Below, piece after piece: positions 1,529-21,976 of a stretch of DNA of 64,000 nucleotides; the stretch's first letter is position 1, and each line of letters opens with the position of its first letter. Under the pieces are notes generated by a model. The model made no database searches, was not told where the DNA came from, and saw nothing but the letters and a program-made list of their open reading frames with translations. This DNA is from Luteibacter sp. UNCMF331Sha3.1 (GTDB lineage Bacteria; Pseudomonadota; Gammaproteobacteria; Xanthomonadales; Rhodanobacteraceae). The DNA is taken from NCBI RefSeq assembly GCF_900109915.1, contig NZ_FOBU01000002.1, positions 48,443-112,442 on the forward strand, in the 5' to 3' direction. The position numbers were made by a program, and so were the translations under genes.

Positions 1529-1577
1529 GACACTTTACATCGACCCCTCCCGGGCTTAAGGTACACACCGGCCGCAA

Positions 1578-1593
1578 CCACAACATCTTGTGT
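1578..1593. promoter_or_regulatory. Candidate NrdR box upstream of nrdJ
   Basis: CCACAACATCTTGTGT agrees at 13 of 16 positions with the known NrdR consensus (aCaCwAtATaTwGTGt), including the CAC and GTG arms. NrdR represses ribonucleotide reductase genes, and the box lies in the only long intergenic stretch (1444-1796) before nrdJ. NrdR usually binds paired boxes; I see only a poor second candidate about 26 bases downstream. I looked for a cobalamin riboswitch (B12 box) in this leader and did not find one. Confidence 0.6.
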
Positions 1594-1759
1594 TCCTTCG
1601 TTCGCTATTTACCAAGTGCTGGTGCTGCGGATACTCAGGTTCATGCTTCAACCCATCGTCGGCAAAGCGTTTTCCGGCAGGCGAAGGGAGATCAGGGATG
1701 GTCGACGTGGCTTCGTGGGGGAGGCCGTCGACGGGTTGCGCCGACGCATACCAATAAAA

Positions 1760-1774
1760 GGCCCGACAAGGGCC
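1760..1774 (+). promoter_or_regulatory. Small leader hairpin before nrdJ
   Basis: GGCCC-GACAA-GGGCC forms a 5-bp stem followed by GATTTTC, about 22 bases before the nrdJ start codon. It resembles a weak attenuator or a translation-modulating stem. A GAGG ribosome site lies immediately after it. Function is inferred only. Confidence 0.3.
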
Positions 1775-1796
1775 GATTTTCGAGGACGACACTTCA

Positions 1797-3944: not shown

Positions 3945-3966
3945 CCCCGCGGAGAGGGAAAAAAGT

Positions 3967-4929
3967 ATGTCGATCGAAAACCAGGTCGTCGAGGGTGAGC
4001 TGCCCTTGGACGACGCCAAAGACAGCGACACCACCCCGGTAGCGGAGACGGAAGTCGCCGCGGAAACGCCGGCGCCGGTCGTCGCGAAGAAGGTCGTCAA
4101 GCGTAAGCCGGTTGCCCGCAAGGTGATCGACACCACGCCGGCACCGACCAGCGATACGGCAGCGGACTACGACACCAACGACCTCGAGCCCGACTTCGTG
4201 TCCGGCCCGGAAGCCAAGGCCAAGCCCGCTCGCAAGGCTCCGGTGAAGAAGGCCGCGAAGAGCGCCGGCTCCGCCGAGTCCACCGAGACCACGGCCGTCG
4301 CCGCCCCGGCAGCGAAGAAGGCTGCCAAGCGCGCACCGGCGAAGAAGGCCGCCGTGGCCGAAGCCGCGCCGAAGAAGGCGGCTGGCAAGAAGGCTGCCGC
4401 GAAGAAGGCCGCGCCGAAGAAGGCCGCTGGCAAGAAGGCTGCCGCGAAGAAGGCTGCGCCGAAGAAGGCTGCCGCCAAGAAGGCGGCACCGAAGAAGACC
4501 GCTGCGAAGAAGGCCGTCAAGAAGGCTGCCGTGAAGAAGACGGCCGCCAAGAAGGCCGTGAAGAAGACGGCCGTCAAGAAGGCCGCCGTCAAGAAGGCAC
4601 CGGCGAAGAAGTCGGCAGCCAAGAAGGGCGCGGTCAAGAAGTCGGCCGGCCGCAAGGCAGCCGTCAAGAAGGTAGCGCGCAAGGCCGCCGGTCGCGTCGC
4701 GAAGAAGGCCGCACCGGCCCGCAAGTCGACGAAGAAGGCCGCCGGCAAGGTCGCTCGCAAGAGCACCGGCCGCGCCGCGGTAAAGAAGGCGGTCCGCAAG
4801 GCCGCCGGCAAGACGACCGCCCGCAAGGCTGTCGGTAAGAAAGTCGCCAAGGCGACGAAGAGGTCCACTGCCAGCAAGACCGGCCGCACGTCCGCTCGCA
4901 AGAGCCCGGGTCGTGGCCGTCGTAAGTAA
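3967..4929 (+). CDS. Histone H1-like AAKK-repeat nucleoid protein
   Basis: 320 residues in two halves. Residues 1 to about 110 are acidic and mixed (many Asp/Glu: EGELPLDD, TNDLEPDF). The rest is a low-complexity, very basic tail of KKAA, KKAP, KKTA and later RKAAGK/RKST repeats, as in eukaryotic H1 tails and bacterial AlgP/Hc1-like proteins. It probably binds and compacts DNA without sequence specificity. GGAGAGGG precedes the ATG. It sits 22 bases after nrdJa and 56 bases before nrdJb, so it is co-transcribed with a dNTP-synthesis enzyme. The repeat DNA is itself prone to copy-number change. A link between nucleoid structure and replication or repair is inference. Confidence 0.85.
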   Translation: MSIENQVVEGELPLDDAKDSDTTPVAETEVAAETPAPVVAKKVVKRKPVARKVIDTTPAPTSDTAADYDTNDLEPDFVSGPEAKAKPARKAPVKKAAKSAGSAESTETTAVAAPAAKKAAKRAPAKKAAVAEAAPKKAAGKKAAAKKAAPKKAAGKKAAAKKAAPKKAAAKKAAPKKTAAKKAVKKAAVKKTAAKKAVKKTAVKKAAVKKAPAKKSAAKKGAVKKSAGRKAAVKKVARKAAGRVAKKAAPARKSTKKAAGKVARKSTGRAAVKKAVRKAAGKTTARKAVGKKVAKATKRSTASKTGRTSARKSPGRGRRK

Positions 4930-4938
4930 GTAGCACCC

Positions 4939-4968
4939 ATCCGGCCCGGCGTACGCGCCGGGCCGGAT
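4939..4968 (+). promoter_or_regulatory. Strong intercistronic hairpin between the histone-like gene and nrdJb
   Basis: ATCCGGCCCGGCG and its exact reverse complement are separated by the loop TACG, giving a 13-bp GC-rich stem. No T-run follows, so it is not a typical intrinsic terminator. It ends 17 bases before the nrdJb ATG. It could partially terminate transcription, protect the upstream mRNA, or set the ratio of NrdJa to NrdJb. Confidence 0.7.
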
Positions 4969-4985
4969 ATCCAAGAGAGAAGACC

Positions 4986-5762
4986 ATGGCGATCAAGATC
5001 GAAAAGAAGATCAAGGGCTACAACGTCGTTAAGCCCGAGGACAAGGCCGCACCGGCTCCCGCACCCGTCGCGGTGAAGGAAGTCGCGCCCGTCGCCGAAG
5101 TCATCCAGATGCACGAGAGCCTCGAGCGTCCGGAAACCCTCGTCGGCAACACGTACAAGATCAAGTCGCCGCTCTTCGAGCACGCGCTGTACGTGACCAT
5201 CAACGACATCGTCCTGAACGCCGGCACCCAGCACGAACAGCGCCGCCCCTTCGAGCTCTTCATCAACTCGAAGAACATGGACCACTTCCAGTGGATCGTG
5301 GCGCTCACCCGAATCCTGTCCGCCGTCTTCCGCAAGGGTGGCGACGTGACGTTCATCGTCGAAGAGCTCAAGGCCGTCTTCGACCCGCGCGGCGGCTACT
5401 TCAAGGCCGGCGGCGTGTACATGCCCAGCATCGTCGCGGAAATCGGCGGCGTGATCGAACAGCACATGAAGTCGATCGGCCTGATCCACGATCCGGAAAT
5501 GAGCGACGCGACCCGTCAGCTCATCGCCGAAAAGCGCGCGGCCTACGAAAACCAGTCGAAGCCGGCAGCCCAGGCCGCCGCGCCGGCCGCTTCCCCGGTG
5601 GCAGCCAGCCCTGCTGGCGATAGCCCGTCCGCCGATAGCCACACCAACGCCTCAGGCTTCCCCGCCGGCGCCACCCTCTGCGCGAAGTGCAACACGCAGG
5701 CCCTGGTGCTGATGGATGGGTGCCAGACTTGTTTGAATTGTGGGTATTCGAAGTGCGGGTGA
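4986..5762 (+). CDS. NrdJb: TSCPD plus C-terminal zinc-ribbon subunit of class II ribonucleotide reductase
   Basis: 258-residue partner of NrdJa. Residues 1-35 form a basic/proline-rich lead. Residues about 38-180 are the TSCPD-type domain (GNTYKIKSPLFEHALYVTIND, IVEELKAVFDPRGGYF). Residues about 185-228 are an Ala/Ser/Pro linker, and the tail is a Cys-rich ribbon (CAKC, CQTCLNC, CGYSKCG). The terminal cysteines are expected to re-reduce the active-site disulfide of NrdJa. The linker DNA at 5598-5620 is a near-perfect REP palindrome read in frame. Start: ATG at 4986 after GAGAGAAG. Same operon as nrdJa. The function is established for the family; the split arrangement is read from the sequence. 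Confidence 0.88.
   Translation: MAIKIEKKIKGYNVVKPEDKAAPAPAPVAVKEVAPVAEVIQMHESLERPETLVGNTYKIKSPLFEHALYVTINDIVLNAGTQHEQRRPFELFINSKNMDHFQWIVALTRILSAVFRKGGDVTFIVEELKAVFDPRGGYFKAGGVYMPSIVAEIGGVIEQHMKSIGLIHDPEMSDATRQLIAEKRAAYENQSKPAAQAAAPAASPVAASPAGDSPSADSHTNASGFPAGATLCAKCNTQALVLMDGCQTCLNCGYSKCG
5598..5620 (+). repeat. REP palindrome embedded in the nrdJb linker
   Basis: The 23 bases match the intergenic type-A REP with one substitution (GTGGC for GTGGG) and one inserted C in the loop: the GCCAGC and GCTGGC arms, the head and the CGA tail are all kept. The following GATAGCCCG also resembles the spacer of the 75-bp array at 60033. It is translated in frame as part of the linker (VAASPAGD). Confidence 0.75.
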
Positions 5763-5782
5763 GCTCGCTTGCCGCGAACGAT

Positions 5783-5861
5783 GCATAAAAAGCGGTGTGG
5801 GGATGTCCATAAGGTGCTATTCGCGGCCCCATAAGTGCTAGTGCCGCCCCCATAAAGCGCT
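5783..5861 (+). repeat. Iteron-like direct repeats at the left island edge
   Basis: Four imperfect copies of a CCATAAGTGCT-like word start near 5783 (weakest: GCATAAAAAGCGG), 5807, 5829 and 5850, spaced 24, 22 and 21 bases, i.e. about two helical turns. The phasing suggests a protein-binding array. The location is where REP-containing core DNA gives way to the island. Function unknown. Confidence 0.4.
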
Positions 5862-5938
5862 CGGAGCAAGACGGTCTCCAGGGCAGACCCTGCATTCGAC
5901 TACTCGCTCGATAAAACCCTGATGCAAAACTGCTACGG

Positions 5939-6028
5939 ATGAACTCGCGCGCTCTGGGAGAGCGGCACCCGGAGATATGCGTGCAGATCGTGGAGGAGCT
6001 GTCCAAGGGCGAACCGCTAAGGGCTTAG
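5939..6028 (+). pseudogene. Short remnant resembling a phage terminase small-subunit helix-turn-helix start
   Basis: A 29-codon reading frame encodes MNSRALGERHPEICVQIVEE and then LSKGEPLRA before a TAG. The pattern (a Pro-Glu-Ile-Cys helix, then EELSKGEPLR) recalls the N-terminal helix-turn-helix of terminase small subunits and related phage regulators, which normally continue for about 120 residues. Here it stops and overlaps the end of the minus-strand gene at 6025. Likely debris of an insertion event; low certainty. Confidence 0.3.
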
Positions 6029-6612
6029 GCGTTGCGCGGTGGTTCAGGTGCCCCAATCTGCGCAACCTGATCGAGCACTATGGGTGGGAGAGCCACTGCC
6101 CGCTCTAGTGCAGGCGGAAGTGCACGTATCTCTTCGAAATTCTTGACCACCGCGTCCGCATCGGACCTCGCGTCAGCCCGGATCATGGCAGGATGTCTGA
6201 GATAGGCCATCCACGCTCTATCGAAAGCGGCACGAGGACCTTCATCGAGATAGAGTGCGTTCCGCATCCACCACTCCCTGATGTCGTTTCCTGTTCGCCT
6301 GTGCTCTTCGTCGGAGCCGTAAAGGTTGCGAAACATCATGAATGCCATACGGTACGCGTCTTGGTGTACCTCAAGCCTCTTCTCAAGCGCGGCAGATCGC
6401 ATGGAGTGGTGGGCGCGTAGCGATTCAGTAAGTTCGGCGAGTCCGCGCTGATTCGTGTCCCGGATATCCTCAACGATCTTGGTCAGATCACCGAGGTCTT
6501 CCTTAGACGCTCGGTTCTTACCTTTTTCCGTCGTGTATCCCCGAAGGAAGCCGCCGGCTAGGCCACCAAGGAAAGATAGGGCCGCGATCGCAAGCGCATA
6601 TGCGAGGTTCAT
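6025..6612 (-). CDS. Hypothetical single-pass membrane protein
   Basis: 195 residues from the ATG at 6612; a GTG at 6705 with AAGG upstream would add 31 residues. From 6612 the protein begins with a transmembrane helix containing small-residue spacing (residues about 3-24, SFLGGLAGGFLRGY). A charged, probably coiled-coil segment follows (KEDLGDLTKIVEDIRDTNQR and on to LEKRLEVHQDAYRMAF), then a helical soluble domain with conserved-looking REWWMRNALYLD. I do not recognise the family. It is the first gene of the lower-GC island and could be a defence accessory or unrelated cargo. Confidence 0.6.
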   Translation of the reverse strand: MNLAYALAIAALSFLGGLAGGFLRGYTTEKGKNRASKEDLGDLTKIVEDIRDTNQRGLAELTESLRAHHSMRSAALEKRLEVHQDAYRMAFMMFRNLYGSDEEHRRTGNDIREWWMRNALYLDEGPRAAFDRAWMAYLRHPAMIRADARSDADAVVKNFEEIRALPPALERAVALPPIVLDQVAQIGAPEPPRNA

Positions 6613-6785
6613 GACTGCTTCTATGCCCCCATCTTGAATAAGATCCGCATCTGCTTTCGAGCTTGGGTCGTTGCTTCGATCATTGAACGGAAGAGCAATG
6701 CGCACACTACCTTAGTTGCCTGAATTTATGTCTTCTTCTGCGTAGTTGCCCGCGACGAATGCTCGAGTCTTGGGCGTATTCGCGA

Positions 6786-7052
6786 CTAGGCGAGTGTGCA
6801 CGTATGCGAGCTTCTGCATCGCTTATCACCGAACTCCCTTAGATTATCCAAGCGCTCGGTGATCGTAGATGGCATAGCGGTGTGCTGGGGGAACTCTTCG
6901 ACACCAAAAATAGCCATAGTGAGTCCGTCCTCAGGGGTGTCCATGATCTCCACCACGCCATCGCACACCGCTGTCACTCTTCGATCTGAAGTGGGTACCC
7001 AACGCGTTATTGCGTGCCCTCGCGGCGCGGTCGCTTGAGCGCATCCGATCAT
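6786..7052 (-). CDS. Hypothetical small protein
   Basis: 88-residue frame starting at an ATG that directly follows the TAA of the upstream frame at 7053, in the same reading frame. The composition looks protein-like (ITRWVPTSDRRVTAVCDGVVEI, split here by domain-like turns; a short acidic stretch MDTPEDG). No ribosome site is seen, so translation would depend on coupling. It may equally be the C-terminal half of one gene broken by the stop at 7053-7055. No function recognised. Confidence 0.35.
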   Translation of the reverse strand: MIGCAQATAPRGHAITRWVPTSDRRVTAVCDGVVEIMDTPEDGLTMAIFGVEEFPQHTAMPSTITERLDNLREFGDKRCRSSHTCTLA

Positions 7053-7250
7053 TTAACGAGCGCGCTGTAGCTCGTTCCCACACTCGTTGGCCTTGCTGCC
7101 GATTATTGCGCCAAAGCACACCCAGTTCTGTATATCGGCGGGGCTGCATGATCCATGAGGAGCTATCCCGTATTGCCTCATGACGATTACAGCGGGATAG
7201 CATTCTCGCGTCGCTACGGAAACTATGAAGGATGAGGGCACGATCGACAA
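7053..7250 (-). pseudogene. Possible N-terminal part of a disrupted small gene
   Basis: 65-residue frame ending exactly where the 6786-7052 frame begins. It starts only with TTG at 7250 (or GTG four codons in) and is Cys-containing (ECYPAV, HGSCSPADIQ, ANECGNE). Read together with the next frame it would make one protein of about 153 residues interrupted by a single TAA. A competing minus-strand frame (6931-7482) runs into the Vsr gene and looks less protein-like. Confidence 0.25.
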
Positions 7251-7420
7251 ACACCTTGACGATGCCCCTTAGTCGGTATCCTCTAGGGCATTGATCTAGG
7301 GCGAGAGGAACGATTGTTTCTCGTTCAAGCTCTCGCGGTCCCTGCGCTATCGGAGCTGGTGCTAAGCTTTCCGACTGAACTAACTTTAACGTGGACCTTC
7401 CGGACGATTGATCGACATAT

Positions 7421-7906
7421 ATGGACACTGTCTCGGCAAAGACGCGATCGAAGATGATGTCAGGCATCAAAGGCTCGAACACAAAGCCCGAGTTAAAGGT
7501 GCGTCGATACCTTCACGGGCTAGGATTTCGCTACAAGCTCCATGTCCGGAAATTGCCTGGTAGTCCCGACCTCGTCCTTCCGCGATGGAATGCAGTAGTT
7601 CAAGTCCACGGATGCTTCTGGCACGGTCATCATGAATGTCCCTTCGCGACCACGCCGGCCACAAGGGAGGATTTCTGGGTGAAGAAGATCAATGACAACG
7701 CCAGAAGGGATGCGCGGACAAACGCTGAGCTGAGGTCCCTTGGCTGGCGTGTTGGGGTGATCTGGGAGTGCGCGCTAAGAAAGACGGAAGCCGTATCGCT
7801 GCACGCACTGGCTAAGTTCATTGAATCCGATCAATCCGACATAGATATTGGTATGGGTGGCATTCGGACACATCCATTACACAGTACAAATCCAGATGGG
7901 GGTTGA
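7421..7906 (+). CDS. vsr: Very short patch repair (Vsr) mismatch endonuclease
   Basis: 161 residues. Vsr nicks next to T:G mismatches created by deamination of 5-methylcytosine and so limits mutation caused by a C5 methylase. The family pattern is clear: TRSKMMSGIKGSNTKPE at the start, the catalytic Asp50 in GSPDLVLPRW, the aromatic/metal-site segment VHGCFWHGHHECPF (residues 62-74), and KINDNARRDARTNAELRSLGW near residue 100. The C-terminal 15 residues go beyond the usual end. It lies about 7.7 kb from the methyltransferase at 15619 but in the same cassette and orientation, with the four-gene minus operon between them; the two probably work as a pair. No clear ribosome site precedes the ATG. 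Confidence 0.93.
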   Translation: MDTVSAKTRSKMMSGIKGSNTKPELKVRRYLHGLGFRYKLHVRKLPGSPDLVLPRWNAVVQVHGCFWHGHHECPFATTPATREDFWVKKINDNARRDARTNAELRSLGWRVGVIWECALRKTEAVSLHALAKFIESDQSDIDIGMGGIRTHPLHSTNPDGG

Positions 7907-8022
7907 GGTTTTCAAGCACTCATACTTCTCTAGTGCGCTCCAACGCCGGGTGATTGGCGAGGATTTCGATAAGTTACGTACAAATGCCAGCCTATCAGGA
8001 TCGGCGATATGAAGCGCCCGTG

Positions 8023-10080
8023 TCATACGAATCCCTCTTCGAGGCCGCGTCGGAACGCTTCTTCTAGTTTCTTGAGGCGGAAGGCTTTCGGCGCGAACGT
8101 TCCCGTCAGTGCTGCCCACTCAACGACTTCCTTCTCCCCGTCAGTGAGCTGATCCTCCACGTCGTTCCAATCGCGGAGTCGCCGCCACGTACCATCGCTC
8201 CAAAGTTGTTGGGCGCGTTCTCGCCAAGAAATCCGACTTCCTGCCTGTCGATCTCCGTCCGATACTACGTTCGCAAGGAATGCGTCCGAAAGACGTATGC
8301 TGCTTTCCTTTATGCGAATCCAGCACGCCTCACGCTTCACCCATTCCGTCACAAGACGGTTGCGTACAAGTTCTTCGGGAATCTCCATCAACAGGGGGAG
8401 GACCTGCTGCGCGACGCGTGTGGCCTCAGCCATAAAGTATTTGGGCGCCCGCTGAAGCTTCCAGATTTCTCCATAGTTCGGTTGAACGTCAAGGTCACGC
8501 ATCCGATCGCTCATGATTGCCAACGTATAGGTAGTCAATGGGCGGACAATTGAGCCCGGATACCACGTTTGCGCCGGGATGGCGGCGTCAACAGATCGGG
8601 TCAAAATTGCGCGACAAGCCAGCCGCTGGAAATAGTCGGTGTCAAATCGCGCAGGATCGTTTGCCCAGGCCTGAATCACGTATTTGCCGAACGCAGCAAT
8701 GTTCTTCTGCGCGCCCGAACTAACCACGTTGGGCAGGCCGTCGAACGTCGATTCATACCGAGCGACGTCTGTCTTTGTCAGGACCTGCTTTTTAGGGTTT
8801 AGCACCTGCCAGAACTTTCCCGCGACACCCTTTTTTCTCTTGAGCTCAACCTTGTAACCTCCGGCTGTTCTCTCAAAATACCAATACGTGTTTCCTTCGC
8901 CTAGAGCTCCGGGTGGAGCCAATGTCTGACGGGAAATCGATTCAAGTCTTTTGAAATAGGGGTGCCCGGCGAAAAGATCAGATGCAGACACCGCATTTTG
9001 AGCATTCGCATAGCGCGCGATGTTGTGCACCGCATCTTCGAATCCGTCTTCCTGCAATCGCGAGAGCTTCATCTGAACCCTGACTTTCGATAGGTCAGCT
9101 CCCGCCTTACTCGCCCAGTATAGGGATGCCGTTGTCTGTCCCCCGTTGACGATCTGCAGTCCTTGGGCCTTCACGATCTCCGTGTATCCCGAGCTTGTAG
9201 TGCTTACCTCAAGATCCGAGACGGTGACGGTCAACCCATTGTTGAATGCAAAGAACATGCCCGGCTCGGTGCGAATGGTGTCTCGTATTCCCTTGTTTAC
9301 CTTTCGATTATCGCCTAGAAACGCACGTACGTTCTGCTCAAGTATACGACCGCCAAAACTGTCGTAGAGCGAGGCAAGGATCTTTCCTGGCATAATGCAT
9401 AGGTAGGACTCGTACTGTGACGCTTCATCGAGCCCCGCGGCCAAAGCGGGAATGCCCTCACCGTAGTCGCCAATGAAATCAATCGCGATCTCTTCCCGGC
9501 CTCGAGCGGACGCGTCCATTCGCGCCAAGCGCGCGATATCCCAAAGATGGGCCTCGACCGAAAGCGGCCCCAGCGCCATTTCCGGAATCTTTCCAATTGA
9601 ACCGCCTAGCGGCCGATCTGATATGAGATAGATGCATGCCTTCGTCATTTCACCACTTGTGGCGAATGAAAAGATCTCTCTGCAGACTGCGTGAGCATCG
9701 TGGCTCTCGTCCCAGGAAGACGCGAGCGAATCGTGCACGCTACCGATAAGGAAACGGAATGCGGCTTGAACGGTACGCCTTGCTTCTTCCGTAAGGATGG
9801 GATCAGGGTCATCGGACCCGGAAAATATTGAAACGATGAGGTTGAGCACGCCGTCGCTGGGAGAAAACCCGTAAGCGTCGAGCTGAACAACCCAGCCTTG
9901 CGAAGTTCGCCCGATTAACCTGCAGATATTGTACTCAGTAAATTCTTCTCCTGCCTCGAGAGTCGCGCAAGCGCGATCCACAAATCGAGTTGCGGTATAG
10001 CCCAAGCCAGCAGCTTGCTCCGCGTCAATTTCGCTGAGTAGTGAGTGTCTGTAGAACGTTACTTCTTCGTCCATGGGCAT
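8023..10080 (-). CDS. AIPR-family (abortive infection phage resistance) protein
   Basis: 685 residues. The AIPR core is recognisable around residues 210-360: LLEQNVRAF-type segment (ILEQNVRAFLGDNRKVNKGI), FFAFNNGLT and IVNGGQTTASLYWA, followed by an alpha-helical C-terminal half. AIPR proteins occur in abortive-infection and restriction contexts; the precise biochemical role is not established to my knowledge. The start at 10080 is chosen because GAGGGA lies 6 bases upstream and it begins 16 bases after the nuclease gene stop; the open frame extends further upstream only as overlap. Last gene of the GHKL-Z1-nuclease-AIPR operon, converging on vsr. Confidence 0.85.
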   Translation of the reverse strand: MPMDEEVTFYRHSLLSEIDAEQAAGLGYTATRFVDRACATLEAGEEFTEYNICRLIGRTSQGWVVQLDAYGFSPSDGVLNLIVSIFSGSDDPDPILTEEARRTVQAAFRFLIGSVHDSLASSWDESHDAHAVCREIFSFATSGEMTKACIYLISDRPLGGSIGKIPEMALGPLSVEAHLWDIARLARMDASARGREEIAIDFIGDYGEGIPALAAGLDEASQYESYLCIMPGKILASLYDSFGGRILEQNVRAFLGDNRKVNKGIRDTIRTEPGMFFAFNNGLTVTVSDLEVSTTSSGYTEIVKAQGLQIVNGGQTTASLYWASKAGADLSKVRVQMKLSRLQEDGFEDAVHNIARYANAQNAVSASDLFAGHPYFKRLESISRQTLAPPGALGEGNTYWYFERTAGGYKVELKRKKGVAGKFWQVLNPKKQVLTKTDVARYESTFDGLPNVVSSGAQKNIAAFGKYVIQAWANDPARFDTDYFQRLACRAILTRSVDAAIPAQTWYPGSIVRPLTTYTLAIMSDRMRDLDVQPNYGEIWKLQRAPKYFMAEATRVAQQVLPLLMEIPEELVRNRLVTEWVKREACWIRIKESSIRLSDAFLANVVSDGDRQAGSRISWRERAQQLWSDGTWRRLRDWNDVEDQLTDGEKEVVEWAALTGTFAPKAFRLKKLEEAFRRGLEEGFV

Positions 10081-10096
10081 AGGCCATCCCTCTGAT

Positions 10097-11053
10097 TCAG
10101 ATTTGAAAAATAAAGCTTGACGGTGCAGCGAAACCGCCAAGTTGGCACAGGTCGAGCGTGTAGCGTGCGCCGGTAATGGCGGGTGCGACGAGAGCTCGCG
10201 AGATTCTGGGGAACAGCTCGTTGACTTCATATGCCTGCTCACCAGTCACGACGTAGCTATACTCATCGTATGCCTTGTGCCGAACGTAGCCACGCTTCAG
10301 TAGTGCGGTCTCTAATACATCTTCCTGGTGCGCACTCGAATGCCTGGCTACGGCAAGAAGGCGATCGCAAATCTGATTGAGCGAAAAGCCGTCCCCTGCC
10401 GTCGCGTGGACAAGCTCGACTACCAGCAGGAAGAGGGGCAGGTGAGCGGAATCGAGCTGATGAAGCGATGAGATCTGAACCTCGTGCTTTGATCCTGCTG
10501 ATCTTGTTTTGACCTCAACGATCTTGTCCGCAAGTGCAAAATCTTGAGGGTGTTCGTCCGGTGCCACCCACGCAGGCAGGGCGGTCTCAATGCCCAGAGA
10601 AGCAATCAGCCTCTCTAGAACGTGTAGCTCTCCCATCAGGCCCCTGATTTCGTGCCCTTCCATAATTGACGTCCTTGCCTTGCTCATCAAGGAATGCCAG
10701 TGATCCATCCGGCGGAACACTCGTCTCGTCGCAGCCGCGGCCGTCGGCTCTTGCGATGAATAGTGAATGACATCGCGGCAAAGTGTTAAGAATACCTCGC
10801 GGTCTTCTGCTGTCCGAAGAAAGATTCGTACCTCGGAGGTATCTGCGTCAGCCTCAGTCTCTAAGGCGATCCCTCGAAGGTTCGGGAGCCTCGCGGGAAC
10901 TGACTCGGTGACGACGTCCCGCAGGAGAAGACCTGGAGCGCCATCACTCCTTCGCACCCAATAAAGATCGAGGGCGTGCTGTTCGTCTATGCGGCGTCCG
11001 ACTAATCGTTCCCCGTTTCTACCGATCTCTGACCATGGGTCATCAATCGCCAT
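10097..11053 (-). CDS. PD-(D/E)XK-motif nuclease of the MORC/Z1 cassette
   Basis: 318 residues. A restriction-endonuclease-like core is visible at about residues 165-205: an Asp in HPQDFALADK, the E-x-K in KIVEVKTRSAG, and a downstream Gln in VQISSLHQLD. This matches the family usually labelled PD-(D/E)XK motif protein (DUF4420) found next to Z1 genes. It is the most likely DNA-cutting component of the operon. Start: ATG at 11053 with GAGGA 8 bases upstream, overlapping the Z1 stop by 11 bases (ATGGCGATTGA), which implies translational coupling. An ATG at 11071 is an alternative. Confidence 0.82.
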   Translation of the reverse strand: MAIDDPWSEIGRNGERLVGRRIDEQHALDLYWVRRSDGAPGLLLRDVVTESVPARLPNLRGIALETEADADTSEVRIFLRTAEDREVFLTLCRDVIHYSSQEPTAAAATRRVFRRMDHWHSLMSKARTSIMEGHEIRGLMGELHVLERLIASLGIETALPAWVAPDEHPQDFALADKIVEVKTRSAGSKHEVQISSLHQLDSAHLPLFLLVVELVHATAGDGFSLNQICDRLLAVARHSSAHQEDVLETALLKRGYVRHKAYDEYSYVVTGEQAYEVNELFPRISRALVAPAITGARYTLDLCQLGGFAAPSSFIFQI

Positions 11054-13745
11054 ACACTTCATCCTCGTCATCGGTCTCCTCGTCTAGTGCCCCATACAGT
11101 TCGCGATACGCGATCACGTTTGCCGTGTAGGAAACCAGCTTCTCCTTTGCACCCGCACTTAGTCCCGGAAAACTCAGACCATACGCCGCATGAACGCCCC
11201 TGTCCTCGTGCGGTTCACTCTGTGTGTGCGTTTGGAGGACGTGAAGCATCAGCAGTGGCCGTGTCCGATGACTCCGATATACGTGGTCGGGAATGTTCTT
11301 TGTGCTCCCGCCATGAGAGGCGATCGCCGCGGCCTGTTCTTGGTCACTTAGGCCAATGCGTTCAATGCCGCGTGATGCGACTCGCCTCTTGGTTCCAGAG
11401 ACCAAGAGCGCGTTGTCAAAGCGCCCCGAACTGCTCGGCTTTACCGCGCGAGTCTGCTTTCCGATCTCAAGCCCGTGGATTTGAGTGGTTTTGGCGTCTG
11501 TGTCCGAGCTTGAGACCAGCACCACATCCCAGCCATCGAAGCTCCGTTCACGAATAAACGTAGACAAAGGGGCAGCCTGAACGTCCAGCTGGCCGGGGTG
11601 AGTTCCGAACGAGGAGACGAAATCCAGAATCAGATCGGAACTCACGCCGCTGAAAAGGTGGTTTGGTAGCCGTCCCTTTCCAACTTTTGTGTGCGATGCA
11701 TCGGTAGAGAGCAGCATCTTTGCGACCAAGTCCTCGACCGCGGAAATGTTTCTCGTCCTCGCAGCCTCGGACGCGATCAGAACCGATGTCTCGACTAGTT
11801 TGCCGGACAGTGAAATCGCGCGGACTATTTGCTCCGCGTTGCGCATCTTGTCACGGGCGGTTACAAGGAGTGTCCCTGGATGGCTTCGTACTGCTAAGCC
11901 GAAATCCATTGGAGTGAGCCCATTGAGCTCCATCCTGCGAATCTCGTCACGTAGCTCCTCAGTGGCGTCAGCAATAAAGCCGTACCAATCGCTGGCCTCG
12001 GGACGAAGAAACAGTCTGCAAAGGTCCCGATACCCGTCCCTGTATCCGAACCAGCGACCCATCTGTAGCAGTGTGTCGTACATCTGCGTGTTGCGCAGGA
12101 AATAGCTAACGGTTAGCCCCTCTAGGGTGAATCCGCGCGACAATGAGTTTCCGCCAACTGCGATGACGTTCAGGCCAGTGTCGGCGTACTTACCGTAGTC
12201 AAGCTTTCCGGAGTTCCTTGACGCATTAACCTCTACCACGGACATTCCCGCCGCAGCGCGATGGAGCATCGCTTGGATCTCTTCCCAACTCTCCTTGCCG
12301 GCAGAATAGTGCTTAGTCCAAGTGGTGTGCAGTGCGCCAAGTATTGGATCGCGAAGTGCCATATCAACCGGTAAGGCATGCCGGTTTTCAATTGCCAACT
12401 GCATTGCCATTAGATGTTGCGATATGGCACGAGCGACATCCCCTTGAATCTTCGTGAATCGCGAGACGTTCACGAGCATCGAGTGGTGTCTGTTCCCTTG
12501 TCCCCGAAGAGTGCGAATCGCTTTCGACAAGACGAAGCAGTCAACTGCCTCGGCCAGACTGGGATGAAGCTTGTCGACAACCCAATCTATCTTGTGCGTC
12601 ACCGGAAGCCACTCGTCGGTCTCCGTTAGATCAACGGTAAGACCATCTTCGTCAGACAGAAAGAACTCGCGCGCTCCGACATAATTGGAGGGAGGCTCCA
12701 ACCCGACGATGAAGTCGCGGGGAAAAAGATCTTTCCCTTGCCCCTCATTTTCCACGTCGGGATCGATGAATATGTTTGCGAATGGCGTGGCTGTGTAGCC
12801 AATATATGCATTGCGGGTCGAGAGACTGAGCAGCTCTCTGATGAGTCGATTGATCGTTCGCGGCGCCTCTGGATCCTTTGATGTATCAACCGAAGCGTTG
12901 TCTGCTTCGTCATCGATGACGAGCATGGGTAAGGTGAGGCCGCCCTTTGACGCGCTAGTGCCACGTATCCAATCGATTAAATTGTTAAGAATCGATGGAT
13001 TCTTCTTTATGACGAGGATGACGGGTTCGAGGTTGTTTTGTAGAGGATTTCCCAAGCTCTCGGCCCTTGCTCGGCTGAAGTCATGCGCCCGGCTCGTATA
13101 TGCGGTTGCCGTAAAGCCAGGGTTTATTTCGCCGACGCCTACTCGATCGACGTTCGTCTGTCGACTGAGGATCTGATCACTGTCGCGCCCGACAAAGCCG
13201 TAATCGACTCGCTCCTGTGTTTGTGAGCGAAGATTACTATGCACACCCGCAATCAAGATGATTACGCGGTAACCGACGTCTGAAGCTTTATTGATCACGC
13301 CTAGGTAGTTGGCGGTCTTTCCGCTCTGAACATGGCCAACAGCTAAGCCACGCCGCGACCAACTGCCCTCTGTACTCGGATCACCCGCAAGGTCGACGAT
13401 GGTATCCGTAACTGCCGCTACAGCATTTACCACGTGTTCGCTCATGCCGCCTGCTATCAGAAAGTCACGATAGCGGCGCCAATAGCGAAAGTTGATCTCA
13501 TGCGCTCGAGCTTTGAGCCACGGCTTGTGCCCGCTTGCTTGAATGGTGTGTGCCGGGCCAAGCACAACCTCGAATTCGCGTTCGATCTGCTTGGCGGCCT
13601 CCACGATTTCTGAATCTGTGGGTTTGGTAGGCAGAAACGGAAGCGCCGCTAGATCACGAACCACCTTGATTATCTCGTCAGGCGTCTGCGCAGCCCTTTG
13701 AGCCATGGCCATTCGCGCGAGACCTAGCAACTGTTCGGTTGACAT
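11043..13745 (-). CDS. Z1-domain superfamily II helicase-like ATPase
   Basis: 900 residues. Helicase motifs in order: Walker A GHVQSGKT (about 136-143), Walker B VIDDEAD (about 276-282), motif III YTATPFANIF, motif V GGNSLSRGFTLEGL, and motif VI QMGRWFGYR (about 555-563). The Z1 family is characteristically found with GHKL ATPases, PD-(D/E)XK nucleases and C5 methylases in restriction operons. It would translocate on or remodel DNA to license cutting. Starts at ATG 13745, 9 bases after the GHKL stop, and overlaps the nuclease gene downstream. Codon use and GC look island-like, unlike the core genes. Confidence 0.92.
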   Translation of the reverse strand: MSTEQLLGLARMAMAQRAAQTPDEIIKVVRDLAALPFLPTKPTDSEIVEAAKQIEREFEVVLGPAHTIQASGHKPWLKARAHEINFRYWRRYRDFLIAGGMSEHVVNAVAAVTDTIVDLAGDPSTEGSWSRRGLAVGHVQSGKTANYLGVINKASDVGYRVIILIAGVHSNLRSQTQERVDYGFVGRDSDQILSRQTNVDRVGVGEINPGFTATAYTSRAHDFSRARAESLGNPLQNNLEPVILVIKKNPSILNNLIDWIRGTSASKGGLTLPMLVIDDEADNASVDTSKDPEAPRTINRLIRELLSLSTRNAYIGYTATPFANIFIDPDVENEGQGKDLFPRDFIVGLEPPSNYVGAREFFLSDEDGLTVDLTETDEWLPVTHKIDWVVDKLHPSLAEAVDCFVLSKAIRTLRGQGNRHHSMLVNVSRFTKIQGDVARAISQHLMAMQLAIENRHALPVDMALRDPILGALHTTWTKHYSAGKESWEEIQAMLHRAAAGMSVVEVNASRNSGKLDYGKYADTGLNVIAVGGNSLSRGFTLEGLTVSYFLRNTQMYDTLLQMGRWFGYRDGYRDLCRLFLRPEASDWYGFIADATEELRDEIRRMELNGLTPMDFGLAVRSHPGTLLVTARDKMRNAEQIVRAISLSGKLVETSVLIASEAARTRNISAVEDLVAKMLLSTDASHTKVGKGRLPNHLFSGVSSDLILDFVSSFGTHPGQLDVQAAPLSTFIRERSFDGWDVVLVSSSDTDAKTTQIHGLEIGKQTRAVKPSSSGRFDNALLVSGTKRRVASRGIERIGLSDQEQAAAIASHGGSTKNIPDHVYRSHRTRPLLMLHVLQTHTQSEPHEDRGVHAAYGLSFPGLSAGAKEKLVSYTANVIAYRELYGALDEETDDEDEVYGD

Positions 13746-13754
13746 ACGGGTTCC

Positions 13755-15278
13755 CTATTCCTCAATCTTGCGCATAGTTGCAAGGACGGCGCGTGCGGAT
13801 GGCTGACTGGCAAACACCGGGGTTGCCAGGATGGTTTCTGCTATGGCGCTTGGGAGAGTTTGTTTGCCTGGCGCCATCGCCTCGACGAAAGCTGCCAGAA
13901 GCAGCCTAAGCTCGCCTTCTTCCACTTGCTGCTGATGAACCGACTTCGGTGTCGAGGCGATATCGGAGAACAGCGTCTCGAGGGGAAGTGTGGCTTCGAT
14001 GGCGAGCAGAATCGATGCCACGTCTTTTCGGCTCCCCACGGCATCTTGGAGTGCGGCTATCATCGGATGATCCCGGCGAATCTCGTATCTAACCGAGCCG
14101 CGCTCTTCAACTCGTACCCATAGAGACAGCCCTGTGCCTGATCCATGTCGACTGCCTCGATACGTATAGGGCCTGCGGGCGGCCTCAGTCATTCGCTGGA
14201 CGAGCGGCCGAAGCCTCGCTCGTATCGCAGTGGGAATGTTGATGCGCGATTTCCTGACATCGATGCTCCATTCCGAATCTAGCGATGTCGGTACATCAAC
14301 GCGCACGCGCAATAGCTTCGTCAGTTCGGAGCGGCGAGAAAGTCCCAGCCAATTACCTCCGGACACCAAACGCCGGGCGCGGTAAATGTACAGACCCTGT
14401 GTTTCGACGAGGGTGGCACCGAGCTCAAGCGCGGCCATCTGGGCGGTAGAAAGATTCTGGTGATGCGGAAGCGTAAAGCCTTGTACTGCGATCTCGCCCT
14501 TGCCCATCCTAAGGAGCTCAACCTCATGAGCATCGGCAAACGGAGTACATGCTTGAGCAAAAGGGTCAGCCGCCTCGAGCTCCGCACCATTAATGCGCAA
14601 GGTTAGCTTTGCTTTTGGATCGTCGTGTTCAGGCGCCAAGAATCTGTGGAATGTCAGTGCCAGATGAGCCCGTGCTCTGCCGAACAGCTCATTGAACGCG
14701 GCGTACTTATGATCGGGTTCATCACCAAGGGCGTCTAGGCGATCTAGCTTTTGCCAGAGGACTAGTGTCCCCGAGGGGCCAATACTGTCGACGAGCGGGA
14801 GGTGTTGAATCTCCCCCTCGTCTAGAACCTCCAAGACCCATTCGTCCTCGCTTATTACGAGATCGAGGTCCCAGCAACGTGCCTCGAGGGCGCCGCCTGC
14901 CCGAGACACAACGGTCAGTCTCCTACATTGACTGAATGATGCCGTCTTCATACCTAGGCCGAATCGGCCTAGGTCGCCGGCATCCCTAATGTCCCGGGGA
15001 CTGCGACTTCCGTGTTGCATCGCACGGGTAAGCTCGTCGGAATTCATGCCTCGACCGTTATCCAGCACCGCCAGATAAGGTCCATTGCCGGGCGAAATAT
15101 CGTTGACGATGTCAATCGACGACGCGGAGGCTGAGATGGAGTTGTCCACGATATCGGCGAGTGCGCTCTCGAACGAGTAGCCGATATCTCGCATCGACTC
15201 TAGAAGTCGCGCGGCACTCGGCCGCAACGTCAGCTTTCCTTGGCTGTCTTTAAGCACGCTTGTAGTCCCTATCCCCAT
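13755..15278 (-). CDS. MORC/MutL-like GHKL ATPase
   Basis: 507 residues from the ATG at 15278; an extension to 15374 is open but looks unlike a protein. Bergerat-fold motifs: N-box ESALADIVDNSISA (about residues 37-50), G1 VLDNGRGM (about 74-81), G2 GRFGLGMKTASF (about 103-114). An S5-like region follows, with IDVRKSRINIP near residue 345. This is the arrangement of the MORC and paraMORC ATPases, which clamp DNA or reorganise complexes on ATP binding. First gene of the four-gene minus operon and divergent from the methyltransferase, with the shared regulatory region at 15279-15618. No strong ribosome site is seen, so the start is moderately certain. Confidence 0.87.
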   Translation of the reverse strand: MGIGTTSVLKDSQGKLTLRPSAARLLESMRDIGYSFESALADIVDNSISASASSIDIVNDISPGNGPYLAVLDNGRGMNSDELTRAMQHGSRSPRDIRDAGDLGRFGLGMKTASFSQCRRLTVVSRAGGALEARCWDLDLVISEDEWVLEVLDEGEIQHLPLVDSIGPSGTLVLWQKLDRLDALGDEPDHKYAAFNELFGRARAHLALTFHRFLAPEHDDPKAKLTLRINGAELEAADPFAQACTPFADAHEVELLRMGKGEIAVQGFTLPHHQNLSTAQMAALELGATLVETQGLYIYRARRLVSGGNWLGLSRRSELTKLLRVRVDVPTSLDSEWSIDVRKSRINIPTAIRARLRPLVQRMTEAARRPYTYRGSRHGSGTGLSLWVRVEERGSVRYEIRRDHPMIAALQDAVGSRKDVASILLAIEATLPLETLFSDIASTPKSVHQQQVEEGELRLLLAAFVEAMAPGKQTLPSAIAETILATPVFASQPSARAVLATMRKIEE

Positions 15279-15618
15279 GTACCGCGTTGAGCAGCACGGT
15301 CCAAGGAATATGATCGGTCCGGACGGTGCTCTAATGGCCTTGCGAAATATACTTAAGTCTGGGGGCGCGATCAAAGATATGTCGATCGCTTCATAATCCC
15401 CAGTGCCCCGCCAAGCAAGCCTCGCGACGTCAAATAAATGGCGCTGATCACGTCCGGGCGCTTTGGTATCGCAATCGCGCCGCGGAAGGAAACGTGGGCA
15501 TTGAACGTCCGTTCCCGTTGCGCACCGTGCAGCGCGAGAGCTGGGCCGTCGTTGACAATTTCTCGCCAGGTGAGATCCTGGGATTCTATAATTCGGCCGT
15601 TCAGAAGCTCAATTGACT
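15279..15618. promoter_or_regulatory. Divergent intergenic region of the restriction cassette
   Basis: 340 bases between the GHKL gene (minus) and the C5 methyltransferase (plus). It must hold the promoters of both the restriction operon and the methylase. I see no controller-protein (C-box-like) palindrome, no small regulatory gene and no clear -35/-10 pair; AT content is higher around 15340-15440 and 15560-15620. Confidence 0.5.
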
Positions 15619-17118
15619 ATGCACATCCCTGTCGTCGACATTTTTGCCGGCCCTGGCGGCCTCGGTGAGGGCTTTTCTGCGTACGCTCCCGGCGCAGAGG
15701 CTGGCTCACGGCCATTTCGTATCGCCATTTCTGCTGAGATGGAGGTAAACGCCGCCAAAACGCTTCGACTTCGTGCTTTCTTCAGGCGTTTTGCTCCGGG
15801 GCACGCACCTAGGAGCTACTACGACTATGTGGCGGGGCGAAGGGAGCTCCCGTGGACGGAAGCGACGAAATCAGATTGGGAGGAGGCGGGGCGGGAAGCT
15901 CGACAGTTGACACTAGGCGTCCGCGACGACGATCTCTATCTGCATGGTCGTATTCGTGAGGTCGCAAAGCACGAGCGGCCTTGGGTCTTGATTGGTGGCC
16001 CACCATGCCAAGCCTATTCTCTGGTCGGTCGCGCACGCAACGCAGGCACAGCTGGATACAGGGCTGAAGACGATCACCGTCATTTCCTATACACGCATTA
16101 CTTGAAGATCGTGCGCGAATTCCGTCCCGCTGCTTTCGTCATGGAGAACGTCAAAGGCATTCTTTCGTCGAAGGTAGGTGGTAGTCTGATGTTTCCACGC
16201 ATTCTTGACGACCTTCATATGCCTGGAGGAGCGAAAGGTCCGAGGTATCGGATCGTTCCGATGGTGGTGCCGAGTTCCCGCGCTAAGGAACCAAGCTTCT
16301 TGCTAAGGGCAGAGGAGCTCGGTGTTCCGCAGGCCAGACATCGAGTTGTGCTCCTTGGAATTCGCGATGATTTAGACGCATCCGGACTTAGATACCTTCG
16401 AACCAGCGAGGCTCGTTTTGGTGTTCTAGACGCAATTGGTGGTCTGCCTCGCCTTCGCAGTGGGACGACCGATGTGGACATCAGCTCGTGGTCGGACTTC
16501 GCGTACGCCTTGCTTTCCGGGACGGGCGGGATGGTCAAGGATCACAAGGTTTCGGAGCGACTTTACAGTCTTGCTGCAAGGGTGAAGCGAGCCGATCCCG
16601 GAAGGGGGGGGCGGTGGATGCCGAAGTCCGCCGGCTGTGATGTAGTTCCTAGCCATCTCAGCAAGTGGATTGTCGACGGGAAGCTTGATGGAATCCTTAA
16701 TCACGAAGTTCGCGATCACATGTCGGCGGACATGGCGCGGTACGCGTTCGCGGCCGCTTTTGGAGAGATTCATAAGCGATCTCCGCGCGGCGCGGAAGAG
16801 TTCCCAGGCGCACTCCACCCACTCCACGCAAACTGGAGTAGCGGAAAATTTGTTGATCGTTTCAAAGTTCAGATCGGAAGCAAGCCTAGCTCGACAGTAA
16901 CCAGTCATTTATCAAAAGATGGCCATTACTTCATCCACCCTGATGCCAGCCAGATGCGTAGTCTGTCTGTGCGAGAGGCTGCGCGACTCCAAACGTTTCC
17001 GGATAACTACTTTTTTGAAGGATCAAGAGGCGCTCAGTATCGTCAAGTTGGGAACGCAGTTCCGCCGTGGATGGCTACGCAAATTGCAGATGTCGTCTAC
17101 TCCGTCTTGAAGAATTAG
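15619..17118 (+). CDS. DNA (cytosine-5)-methyltransferase
   Basis: 499 residues from the ATG at 15619; a TTG two codons earlier (15613) is possible. It transfers a methyl group from S-adenosylmethionine to C5 of cytosine. Motif I VVDIFAGPGGLGEGF (AdoMet site) at the N-terminus, motif IV GGPPCQAYSLVGRARN with catalytic Cys130, motif VI FVMENVKGI, motif VIII near GVPQARHRVVLLGIRDD, and motif X RQVGNAVPPWMA at the C-terminus. The region between VIII and IX (about 245-420) is the target-recognition domain. It is expected to protect host DNA from the neighbouring operon, and its product 5-methylcytosine explains the vsr gene. Confidence 0.94.
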   Translation: MHIPVVDIFAGPGGLGEGFSAYAPGAEAGSRPFRIAISAEMEVNAAKTLRLRAFFRRFAPGHAPRSYYDYVAGRRELPWTEATKSDWEEAGREARQLTLGVRDDDLYLHGRIREVAKHERPWVLIGGPPCQAYSLVGRARNAGTAGYRAEDDHRHFLYTHYLKIVREFRPAAFVMENVKGILSSKVGGSLMFPRILDDLHMPGGAKGPRYRIVPMVVPSSRAKEPSFLLRAEELGVPQARHRVVLLGIRDDLDASGLRYLRTSEARFGVLDAIGGLPRLRSGTTDVDISSWSDFAYALLSGTGGMVKDHKVSERLYSLAARVKRADPGRGGRWMPKSAGCDVVPSHLSKWIVDGKLDGILNHEVRDHMSADMARYAFAAAFGEIHKRSPRGAEEFPGALHPLHANWSSGKFVDRFKVQIGSKPSSTVTSHLSKDGHYFIHPDASQMRSLSVREAARLQTFPDNYFFEGSRGAQYRQVGNAVPPWMATQIADVVYSVLKN

Positions 17119-18088: not shown

Positions 18089-18284
18089 GGCAATTTTTCA
18101 GAATTGTCCTATGTACCGCAACCTAATTTTGCGGTGAACTACACATCGAAGTTTCCATTACGGAAGCTTCGACGCGAGCTGTGGACGTCCGGACGCCGCC
18201 TTTTGATCGCGCCCGCTGTTCCGCCAACCAGAGAAGTTGCATCAACGCTGCGCTATCGAGTGCGGTGTCAGGAGAGTTTTGCTT

Positions 18285-19955
18285 ATGGATTGGAAGATCA
18301 AGACGGCCCTTGCGCTCACGCTGCTCGCGGCAGCAGCTATCGGTGGGTGTTTCCTCGCTGGCTACCTCACGCTCACCTTGCTACGAGTTTCACTACCGCT
18401 GAGCTGGAACACCTGGCTGCTTTACTGGCAGGCGATAGAGCACCCGCAGGTAGCGCCGTACGCGTGGCGGATCAAGCTGGCCGGAGGCATCGGATTCGGT
18501 GCCGCTATCTTCGGCTGGCTCGCCTTCGTCGTGCCCATGCTGCGAAAGCCCGCGCGCTCTCTGCACGGCGAGGCTCGCTTCGCGACCGTGGCCGAGGTCG
18601 CTAAGGCGGGACTGTTCAACAATCGTTCTGACGGTATTGTCGTAGGCAAGCTGGCTGGGCGATTCATCCGTCTTGTCGGGCAGCAGTTCGCCTTACTTGC
18701 CGCGCCGACCCGTTCAGGCAAAGGCGTGTCGAATGTGACGCCTAACCTGATGCTTTACGGCGAGTCTGTGGTTGTCCTGGACATCAAGCAGGAAAACCAT
18801 GCTCAGACCAGTGGGTGCAGGCTGGCGATGGGGCAGGATGTCTACATGTTCAACCCGTTCGCAGAAGACCGGCGGACCCACCGCTGGAACCCGTTGAGCT
18901 ACGTTACAGATGACAAGGACTTCCGTATTTCGGATGTGATGTCGATCGGCGAGTCGCTCTATCCCGATACGACACCCGACAACAAGTTCTGGGTCAGCCA
19001 GGCACGCAACGCCTTCGTTGCCTTCGCGTTGTATCTGTTCGAGAAGCGCGACAAGGAACGAAATGACTTTGCGCCAATTATCAGTACTCCGACGCTCGGT
19101 CATGTGTTTCGCCTTTCGAGCGGCACGGGTGGCGACCTGAAAGGCACACTGCGCGACCTCTCGCGCCACGACCACCTAGGTTCCGACGCAAGGCAGGCTT
19201 TCGCGAATCTCACGTCGCAGGAAGGACCTACCTTCTCGTCGATCATGGGCATGTTCCGCGAGCCCCTGAACGCCTTCCTGAACCCGGTTCTCGACGCCGC
19301 GACCAGCGGCGACGACTTCCTGCTCACGGATGTACGCCGGAAGAAGATGACTGTTTACGTATGCGTTCTGCCTAACAAGCTGGCGGAGAGCCGGGTCATC
19401 CTCAACCTGTTCTTCAGTCAATTGATCAAGGTCAATACAAAGGAAATGCCATCCAAGGAAAACGGGCTCAAGCATCAGTGCCTTCTTCTCATGGACGAGT
19501 TCACGTCGATCGGAAAGATCGACATCCTCGCGGACTCAGTAGCCTATATCGCCGGCTATAACCTTCGCTTGCTAACGATCATCCAGAGCCTTTCACAGCT
19601 CGATGCGGTCTATGGTCAAGACGTGGCGCGCTCCTTCGTAACCAATCACGCACTGCAAATCATCTTCACGCCACGGGAGCAGCGCGACGCCAACGAGTAC
19701 TCCGAGATGCTCGGGCATTCGACCGTTCGAACTGAATCGCTGTCGAGGGGGCGCGACGTCAGTAAGAGCTACAGCGACCAGCGTCGCGCCTTGATGCTTC
19801 CCCAAGAACTTAAGGCAATGAGCCCGGAGAAAGAAATCATCATGTTTGAAGGGATCGGGCGGCCCGTGATGTGCAAGAAAATCAGGTATTACAAGGACCG
19901 GAAGTTGAAGAAGCTGGTCAGGCCACCCGCAGAGGTTCCGCGGATGAAGCTTTGA
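18285..19955 (+). CDS. virD4: Type IV secretion coupling ATPase VirD4
   Basis: 556 residues. The coupling protein picks up substrates and hands them to the type IV channel at the inner membrane. Two N-terminal membrane helices (residues about 7-30 and 62-85), Walker A APTRSGKGVSN (about 138-146), Walker B LLLMDEFTSIGKI (about 400-412), and FTPREQRDANEYSEMLG near the C-terminus are diagnostic of VirD4/TraG. The ATG at 18285 is supported by AGGAGAG 8 bases upstream; the frame is open to 18237. With an XVIPCD effector next door it fits the X-T4SS that kills bacteria in Xanthomonas and Stenotrophomonas. No virB genes are in the window. Confidence 0.93.
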   Translation: MDWKIKTALALTLLAAAAIGGCFLAGYLTLTLLRVSLPLSWNTWLLYWQAIEHPQVAPYAWRIKLAGGIGFGAAIFGWLAFVVPMLRKPARSLHGEARFATVAEVAKAGLFNNRSDGIVVGKLAGRFIRLVGQQFALLAAPTRSGKGVSNVTPNLMLYGESVVVLDIKQENHAQTSGCRLAMGQDVYMFNPFAEDRRTHRWNPLSYVTDDKDFRISDVMSIGESLYPDTTPDNKFWVSQARNAFVAFALYLFEKRDKERNDFAPIISTPTLGHVFRLSSGTGGDLKGTLRDLSRHDHLGSDARQAFANLTSQEGPTFSSIMGMFREPLNAFLNPVLDAATSGDDFLLTDVRRKKMTVYVCVLPNKLAESRVILNLFFSQLIKVNTKEMPSKENGLKHQCLLLMDEFTSIGKIDILADSVAYIAGYNLRLLTIIQSLSQLDAVYGQDVARSFVTNHALQIIFTPREQRDANEYSEMLGHSTVRTESLSRGRDVSKSYSDQRRALMLPQELKAMSPEKEIIMFEGIGRPVMCKKIRYYKDRKLKKLVRPPAEVPRMKL

Positions 19956-20002: not shown

Positions 20003-20080
20003 TCCATCTACCAGACAGCGTGTTGTGATCGGAGCTGGCGCCGAACGCAGAGCGACCCACCGAATTAAGGAGGCGTGCAC

Positions 20081-20548
20081 ATGAAGAGAAAGGCGCTGAC
20101 AAGCCAATGTCCGGCGAACGGCTTTGTCGGATTCAAGACAGCCTCCGTAGCCATAGCGTTGGTCGTTGGCTTGGCCGTTGATGTCGCCGCCCCGCTGTAC
20201 GGCCGCGATGTAGTGGCCGAGGGTCGACGCCTCGGGTTGCGCCCGACCTATAAGGGTTGCCTTGATGCATCAGGGGGCGTCATACCCGACATGCGGGACT
20301 GCATCAGCGAGGAGATGGGCTACCAGGATGAGCGACTTAATCGTGTTTACAAACAAGTGATGGCGAAGCTCGATCCAACAGCTAAGAGGGCATTGCGAGA
20401 TGAAGAGCGTGCGTGGATTCTCCAGCGCGACATCGATTGTGATCCCGGTCCTGAGCCTGGGCAGGGCATGGAGCTGGATGCGTATGGATGCGCGGTCAGA
20501 TCAACGGCATCACGGGCTCGTGAGCTAGAACAGATGCTGCAGAAGTAG
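20081..20548 (+). CDS. LprI-type (DUF1311) lysozyme inhibitor, probable immunity protein
   Basis: 155 residues; ATG at 20081 behind AAGGAGG at 7 bases (a GTG two codons earlier fits less well). An N-terminal membrane/signal segment (SVAIALVVGLAVDVAAPLYG, about residues 25-45) directs export to the periplasm. The mature part is an LprI/DUF1311 domain: CLDASGG, DCISEEMGYQDERLNRVY, LRDEERAWILQRDIDC and a final Cys in AYGCAV. This family inhibits lysozyme-like enzymes. It lies 27 bases upstream of a peptidoglycan-attacking effector, which is the usual layout of X-Tfi/X-Tfe immunity-effector pairs; the immunity role is inferred from this. Confidence 0.85.
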   Translation: MKRKALTSQCPANGFVGFKTASVAIALVVGLAVDVAAPLYGRDVVAEGRRLGLRPTYKGCLDASGGVIPDMRDCISEEMGYQDERLNRVYKQVMAKLDPTAKRALRDEERAWILQRDIDCDPGPEPGQGMELDAYGCAVRSTASRARELEQMLQK

Positions 20549-20575: not shown

Positions 20576-21976
20576 ATGGAAGCTGGAAGGGGTTGGACTA
20601 TCGGTCAGACATCGCGCCGATATGAAGCAGGCGGTCGAGGGGCGGGAACCATCTCGACCGGAAAGGGCGATAAGGGCGGTGTGTCGTATGGACAGTATCA
20701 GTTGTCCAGCAAGGCGAAGACAGTAGACGAGTATTTGAAGTGGTCAAAGTACCGCGACGAGTTCGCCGGGTTGGAAGTCAATAGCCCTGCGTTCAAGCAG
20801 AAGTGGAAGGAACTGGCCTCAGTTGACTCTGGTTTCGGTGTAGATCAGCACGAGTTCATCAAAGCCCATCATTACGCGCCACAGATGCGGGCGCTCGCGG
20901 GCCAAAGCATTGACCTCACTACACGTGGCCCAGCCGTGCAAGATGCGATCTGGAGTACCTCGGTTCAATACCGCGGTCTGACGCAATCGGTTTTCAAAAA
21001 TGGACTTACAGAAAAATTCGGTCCTAATTTCAAGCTGTCGGACCTGAGCGATCAACAGATTGTCGAGGCAGTGCAAGATTACAAAGCCGCTCACGTGGAA
21101 TCAAATTTCAGAGGCTCTCCCGAAAACTGGGAGGGGATACGAAACCGCATTCGCGACGAAAGGCGAGACCTCGTTGAATTTGCCAGAACTGGTGTGCACC
21201 CCTCCCTGACTGAGGACTCTCCTGAGATTGCACGGTCCTCGAACACTCTGAAGCTCGGAATGCGTGGGGATCGCGTCTCGAAGTTGCAGAGCTCGCTTCG
21301 GGACCTAGGGTACTTGGGATCTGACGGGAATCAACTCGTGTCCGATGGCCATTTCGGGCCGAACACGCGAGATGCTGTCCAAGCGTTCCAGCGATCGTCC
21401 GGGCTCACGGCAGATGGTCAGGTTGGGGCGAAGACGATGTCGGCTCTGGAGGACAAGATCGAGGCAGCGAAGAGTCTCGATGTTGACGGCATGGCTCACG
21501 AAACACCTTCACAGAATCACGAGCCATCGAGGGCTCCCATCGACTTGACCGATCCCCGTCACCCCGACCATACCCTTTCTAGCAGCATCCGGGCTGGCGT
21601 CGTCGAGCTGCATGAGAGGGAGCAAATTTTGCTGTCCAGCGACCAAGTGGACAGAGTAACGGCTGCGTTGACTGCTGAGGTAAAGGGGGCTGGCCTGACG
21701 CACGTGGACGAGATTCGGTTCGGCAGGCTGCCTACGGGCGAGCTACATCCCTCGATTCATGCTTATCAGGTGCTCGACGGACGGTTGGATCATCCATACA
21801 CCATGCGGGCCTCGGTTTATGGTCCGGATGCGGTCAACGTTCCGGTCGAGACGTCCCAGGAAAAGCTGCAGCAGGTAAATCAGCAGATTGATAACCAGCA
21901 GCAGATGGACTTGCAGGTTCAACAGGGTATGCAGCAGCAACAGAGCTCGCCGGAGCCTTCGATCGGCGGCTCCTGA
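20576..21976 (+). CDS. X-T4SS antibacterial effector: lysozyme-like domain, peptidoglycan-binding domain and XVIPCD tail
   Basis: 466 residues, three modules. Residues about 12-210 form a lysozyme-like domain (RRYEAGGRGAG, DKGGVSYGQYQLSS, HEFIKAHHYAPQM, AVQDAIWSTSVQY), seen also in VgrG-linked and phage hydrolases; Glu17 is a plausible catalytic acid. Residues about 225-290 are a PG_binding_1 domain (LGMRGDRVSKLQSSLRDLGYL, FGPNTRDAVQAFQ). From about 321 comes an XVIPCD-like tail: DPRHPDHTL, GLTHVDEIRFGRL, VNVPVETS, then a Gln-rich end. XVIPCDs are the signals VirD4 binds in Xanthomonas. Likely injected into rival cells to cut peptidoglycan. AAGGAG precedes the ATG. Neighbours: virD4 and the LprI immunity gene. 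Confidence 0.88.
   Translation: MEAGRGWTIGQTSRRYEAGGRGAGTISTGKGDKGGVSYGQYQLSSKAKTVDEYLKWSKYRDEFAGLEVNSPAFKQKWKELASVDSGFGVDQHEFIKAHHYAPQMRALAGQSIDLTTRGPAVQDAIWSTSVQYRGLTQSVFKNGLTEKFGPNFKLSDLSDQQIVEAVQDYKAAHVESNFRGSPENWEGIRNRIRDERRDLVEFARTGVHPSLTEDSPEIARSSNTLKLGMRGDRVSKLQSSLRDLGYLGSDGNQLVSDGHFGPNTRDAVQAFQRSSGLTADGQVGAKTMSALEDKIEAAKSLDVDGMAHETPSQNHEPSRAPIDLTDPRHPDHTLSSSIRAGVVELHEREQILLSSDQVDRVTAALTAEVKGAGLTHVDEIRFGRLPTGELHPSIHAYQVLDGRLDHPYTMRASVYGPDAVNVPVETSQEKLQQVNQQIDNQQQMDLQVQQGMQQQQSSPEPSIGGS

Follow-up and report, generated by a model that had tools for sequence, protein, structure and literature searches.

A six-gene MORC-family locus of Luteibacter, probably an antiviral marking and attack system, whose methylase and attack halves appear to exchange partners

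A six-gene locus in Luteibacter sp. UNCMF331Sha3.1, located at positions 7421 to 17118 of a 64,000-nucleotide stretch of contig NZ_FOBU01000002.1 (referred to here as the window), was analysed by sequence comparison and structure prediction. The locus encompasses a four-gene core, including a MORC-family ATPase, flanked by genes for a Vsr endonuclease and a C5 cytosine DNA methyltransferase, and probably represents an antiviral kit: the methyltransferase would methylate host DNA as a self mark, and the core would attack invading DNA lacking this mark. The gene set itself has already been predicted in print; what is new here is that methylase and core exchange partners, the marking and attacking halves appearing to have been swapped for one another in nature.

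A FastTree phylogeny of 98 cores was constructed, in which the accompanying methyltransferase was assigned to an upper (63 loci) or lower (32 loci) score class, three loci being without a score. At least 11 changes of score class and at least 19 changes of methyltransferase position were required on this tree. A pairwise comparison of 96 loci (4560 pairs) revealed cases of exchange involving three viral-contig records, L119, L121 and L130. L121 and L119 share 94% identity in the methyltransferase, 94% in Vsr and 85% in the recognition region, with 35% in the core proteins; the corresponding values for L121 and L130 are 93, 97, 89 and 35%. At the DNA level, positions 1-6697 of L119 correspond to 1612-8308 of L121 at 91%, spanning the flank, Vsr and the methyltransferase (stop codons at 6590 and 8201), beyond which only short stretches at 67-77% were found. 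Likeness returns (79%) at 13931 in L119 and 15818 in L121, just past the AIPR genes, whose ends lie at 13925 and 15690, respectively. The same pattern was observed for L130 and L121, with 89% up to 8335 and 8308 and 91% from 15609 and 15818, respectively. The reverse case is represented by L130 and L061, whose DNA matches over the core only (8329-15282 to 542-7456, 72%); the core proteins average 77%, and the methyltransferases, situated at opposite ends, are 25% identical. Because L119 and L130 have one core type in common, the exchange events seen number about two independent ones.

The components of the locus, and the region between its divergent units, are as follows (window coordinates).

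7421..7906, plus strand: vsr, very-short-patch repair endonuclease, 161 amino acids (Pfam PF03852, 3.7e-26; NCBIfam vsr, 131.9 bits, cut-off 97.85)
8023..10080, minus strand, reading frame open to 10242: AIPR protein, MzaE-like (Pfam AIPR_N and AIPR; PADLOC MzaE, 5.5e-71)
10097..11053, minus strand: DUF4420 PD-(D/E)XK-type putative nuclease, MzaD-like (Pfam DUF4420, 2.6e-62; PADLOC MzaD, 1.3e-23)
11043..13745, minus strand: MzaC-like core gene, a Z1 helicase according to a preliminary description of this DNA (PADLOC best match, MzaC)
13755..15278, minus strand, reading frame open to 15374: MORC-family GHKL ATPase, MzaB-like (Pfam HATPase_c_3, 8.7e-32; PADLOC MzaB, 1.2e-77)
15279..15612: divergent intergenic region between the MORC and methyltransferase genes (plus strand, TCGCCA-18-TATAAT at 15563-15592; minus strand, TTGATC-17-TATATT at 15374-15346)
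15613..17118, plus strand, alternative ATG start at 15619: C5 cytosine DNA methyltransferase (Pfam DNA_methylase, 2.1e-41; dcm, 117.5 bits, cut-off 100.65)

The arrangement given in the preliminary description, a four-gene minus-strand operon (15278 to 8023) flanked by vsr and an oppositely directed C5 methyltransferase gene, was thus recovered. The Vsr protein carries both PGSPDLV and HGCFWH, which we take to be its active-site motifs. Residues E148, D177, E186 and K188 of the DUF4420 protein were unchanged in 98/98 loci, as were all 13 residues checked in AIPR (including N334-G336, N366, G367 and Q369); a tandem pair of AIPR genes was observed at one locus (L051:13268-17801). Sequence matches of the MORC-family ATPase included chains of MutL and of MORC2, 3 and 4, and those of the methyltransferase included the HaeIII and HhaI methylases. 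The promoters of both the MORC and the methyltransferase genes may lie within the divergent intergenic region; promoter-like sites between 6600 and 17900 were no commoner than in shuffled sequence (5 versus 5.4).

As a kind, the system is not new. The MZA system, mzaABCDE, was reportedly described by Gao in 2020, and the best PADLOC matches of the four core proteins are MzaB, MzaC, MzaD and MzaE, in the same gene order. Since NCBIfam scores lie far below the cut-offs (MzaB, 300.6 of 850 bits; MzaC, 562.4 of 1500; MzaD, 123.3 of 420; MzaE, 318.3 of 1050) and MzaA was not found in the window, the core is, as judged from sequence, an MZA-like branch and not a canonical member. MzaA has been described as sigma-like (PMC10924106; PMC9523054); of 10 NF041931 places genome-wide none lies inside the window, and no window reading frame of at least 70 amino acids matched the MzaA-like protein of L024, a locus nearer to canonical MZA. 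That sigma-70-type protein (L024:9612-11894, 760 amino acids), whose end overlaps the MORC gene start, scores as highly against RpoD as against MzaA. L024 resembles the present locus in having an adjoining methyltransferase and Vsr, neither of which, at the present locus, carries a Mza name among the matches listed, a difference from MZA.

Class 2 DISARM likewise combines a helicase with a C5 methyltransferase, and DrmMII (9.3e-87) is the best match of the present methyltransferase, 25 of whose 54 PADLOC matches were listed; unlike in DISARM, however, the other five proteins gave no Drm match, and a test for the drmA, drmB and drmC set required for DISARM was negative. The restriction-modification systems CglI and NgoAVII differ in their nuclease, which is of the PLD type and has a B3 DNA-binding domain, and are described as three genes, hence without MORC or AIPR (PMC4267653). 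Among the closest in print are the third MORC operon type of Iyer 2008 (PMC2292703), a computational prediction whose motifs (GhXhhpXXRhl, DThhQXuRhFG and E-D-ExK) were recognized here by eye against the text and by residue counts, and the putative type II defence system of Miller 2022 (PMC9523054), compared by gene content only. Section 11 of the latter names neither Vsr nor partner exchange, and mentions a putative transcriptional regulator. In a narrow check, partner exchange was not described in introduction parts 1-2 of Iyer 2008 either. The preliminary description knew of no detailed mechanism, and no mechanism paper was found in the open-access literature searched, but the combination itself is better known than that remark implied, through PADLOC and NCBIfam MzaB-E and the two publications above. 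According to a 2021 paper (PMC8011034), bacterial MORCs were still poorly understood in biochemical terms.

The co-occurrence of the six families supports a multi-subunit, methylation-linked restriction-type system; the interpretation offered in the preliminary description holds only in part. The methyltransferase lies within 3.5 kb of 70 of the 74 full cores, its relatives are present at each of five class loci, and the density contrast is 96 and 77 versus 5 and 1. That the genes are chance neighbours within a defence island, as the low-GC stretch adjoining the hotspot anchor might suggest, is very hard to reconcile with this contrast and with the methyltransferase relatives, and has a negligible probability. 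Vsr is absent within 3.5 kb at 13/74 full-core loci (six of these 13 being cut by contig ends) and is better read as repair of 5-methylcytosine (m5C) deamination. A type IV-like mode, in which modified foreign DNA would be attacked because it is methylated and the adjoining methyltransferase would be unrelated, is highly improbable: eukaryotic MORCs are fused to domains for which binding of methylated DNA and modified histones has been predicted (Iyer 2008, PMC2292703), but the proximity of methyltransferase and core argues against such independence, and attacking m5C in the motif of the adjoining enzyme would presumably be suicidal. For this reason, the earlier term 'methylation-dependent' is retained only in the sense of self-marking, and not as attack on methylated DNA.

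Several observations weigh against the marking and attack system favoured here. No recognition motif was predicted, and the core shows no obvious motif-reading domain. Foldseek searches with the models of the DUF4420 protein (AlphaFold2, pLDDT 93.5) and of AIPR returned no PDB match at E≤0.001; the former is called a nuclease, as a consequence, from its E-D-ExK pattern and its family annotation. Even L024 falls below all five NCBIfam cut-offs, so that the present system is tied to the tested MZA system through homology alone. A BREX-like version of the same scheme differs in the motif reader: the methyltransferase itself would be the sensor and, held on an unmethylated site, would license a core without motif reading of its own; another methyltransferase could then be plugged in. 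This version is possible but rather unlikely, as the AIPR ends, down to 29-48% in one pair and relatively lower in pairs with a switch than in those without, could be a reader, and both cores adjoining a common methyltransferase might read the same motif. Moreover, BrxX, which modifies adenine, is part of a different system. Abortive infection, in which AIPR would be a toxic effector freed on sensing of phage DNA, with death of the infected cell, is quite doubtful. AIPR proteins have been predicted in print to contain a HEPN-type RNase, and P0002 has a PADLOC match to AbiU (1.2e-19). However, a DNA-cutting effector is already suggested by the four invariant nuclease-type residues of DUF4420, and the lack of a significant fold match for the AIPR model is weak evidence either way. 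The abortive step earlier assigned to AIPR, based on the family name and this printed prediction, is not supported.

The six-gene locus sits in a defence hotspot, anchored by the following gene.

4986..5762, plus strand: TSCPD-domain gene (TSCPD match), downstream of a ribonucleotide reductase gene

This anchor was found in 13/13 genomes of the genus (own genome included), plus G389 and G390, and in relatives it is directly followed by defence-type genes (L167-L176 and L180), comprising several restriction and candidate defence systems across the genus. At one of these loci (L176:13890-16618), a HATPase_c_3 protein adjoins a PbeA-like protein, perhaps another GHKL-based system. A 320 amino acid protein with abundant lysine and alanine repeats is encoded between the ribonucleotide reductase gene and the anchor (window 3967-4929). 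Adjoining the defence locus are genes for a VirD4-type coupling protein (18237-19955), an LprI-like protein (20075-20548) and an X-Tfe-type protein with a VgrG3-like C-terminal domain, peptidoglycan binding and XVIPCD (20576-21976), presumably components of a type IV secretion system that kills bacteria.

MORC ATPases are important in eukaryotic gene silencing, and the MORC-containing system family described here is widespread, with its active-site residues kept. Partner exchange provides a natural comparison, a near-identical methylase adjoining two very different attack modules, and makes the question of how self is discriminated from foreign directly testable: tests of natural swap pairs would tell which of the two, attack module or methylase, is the motif reader.
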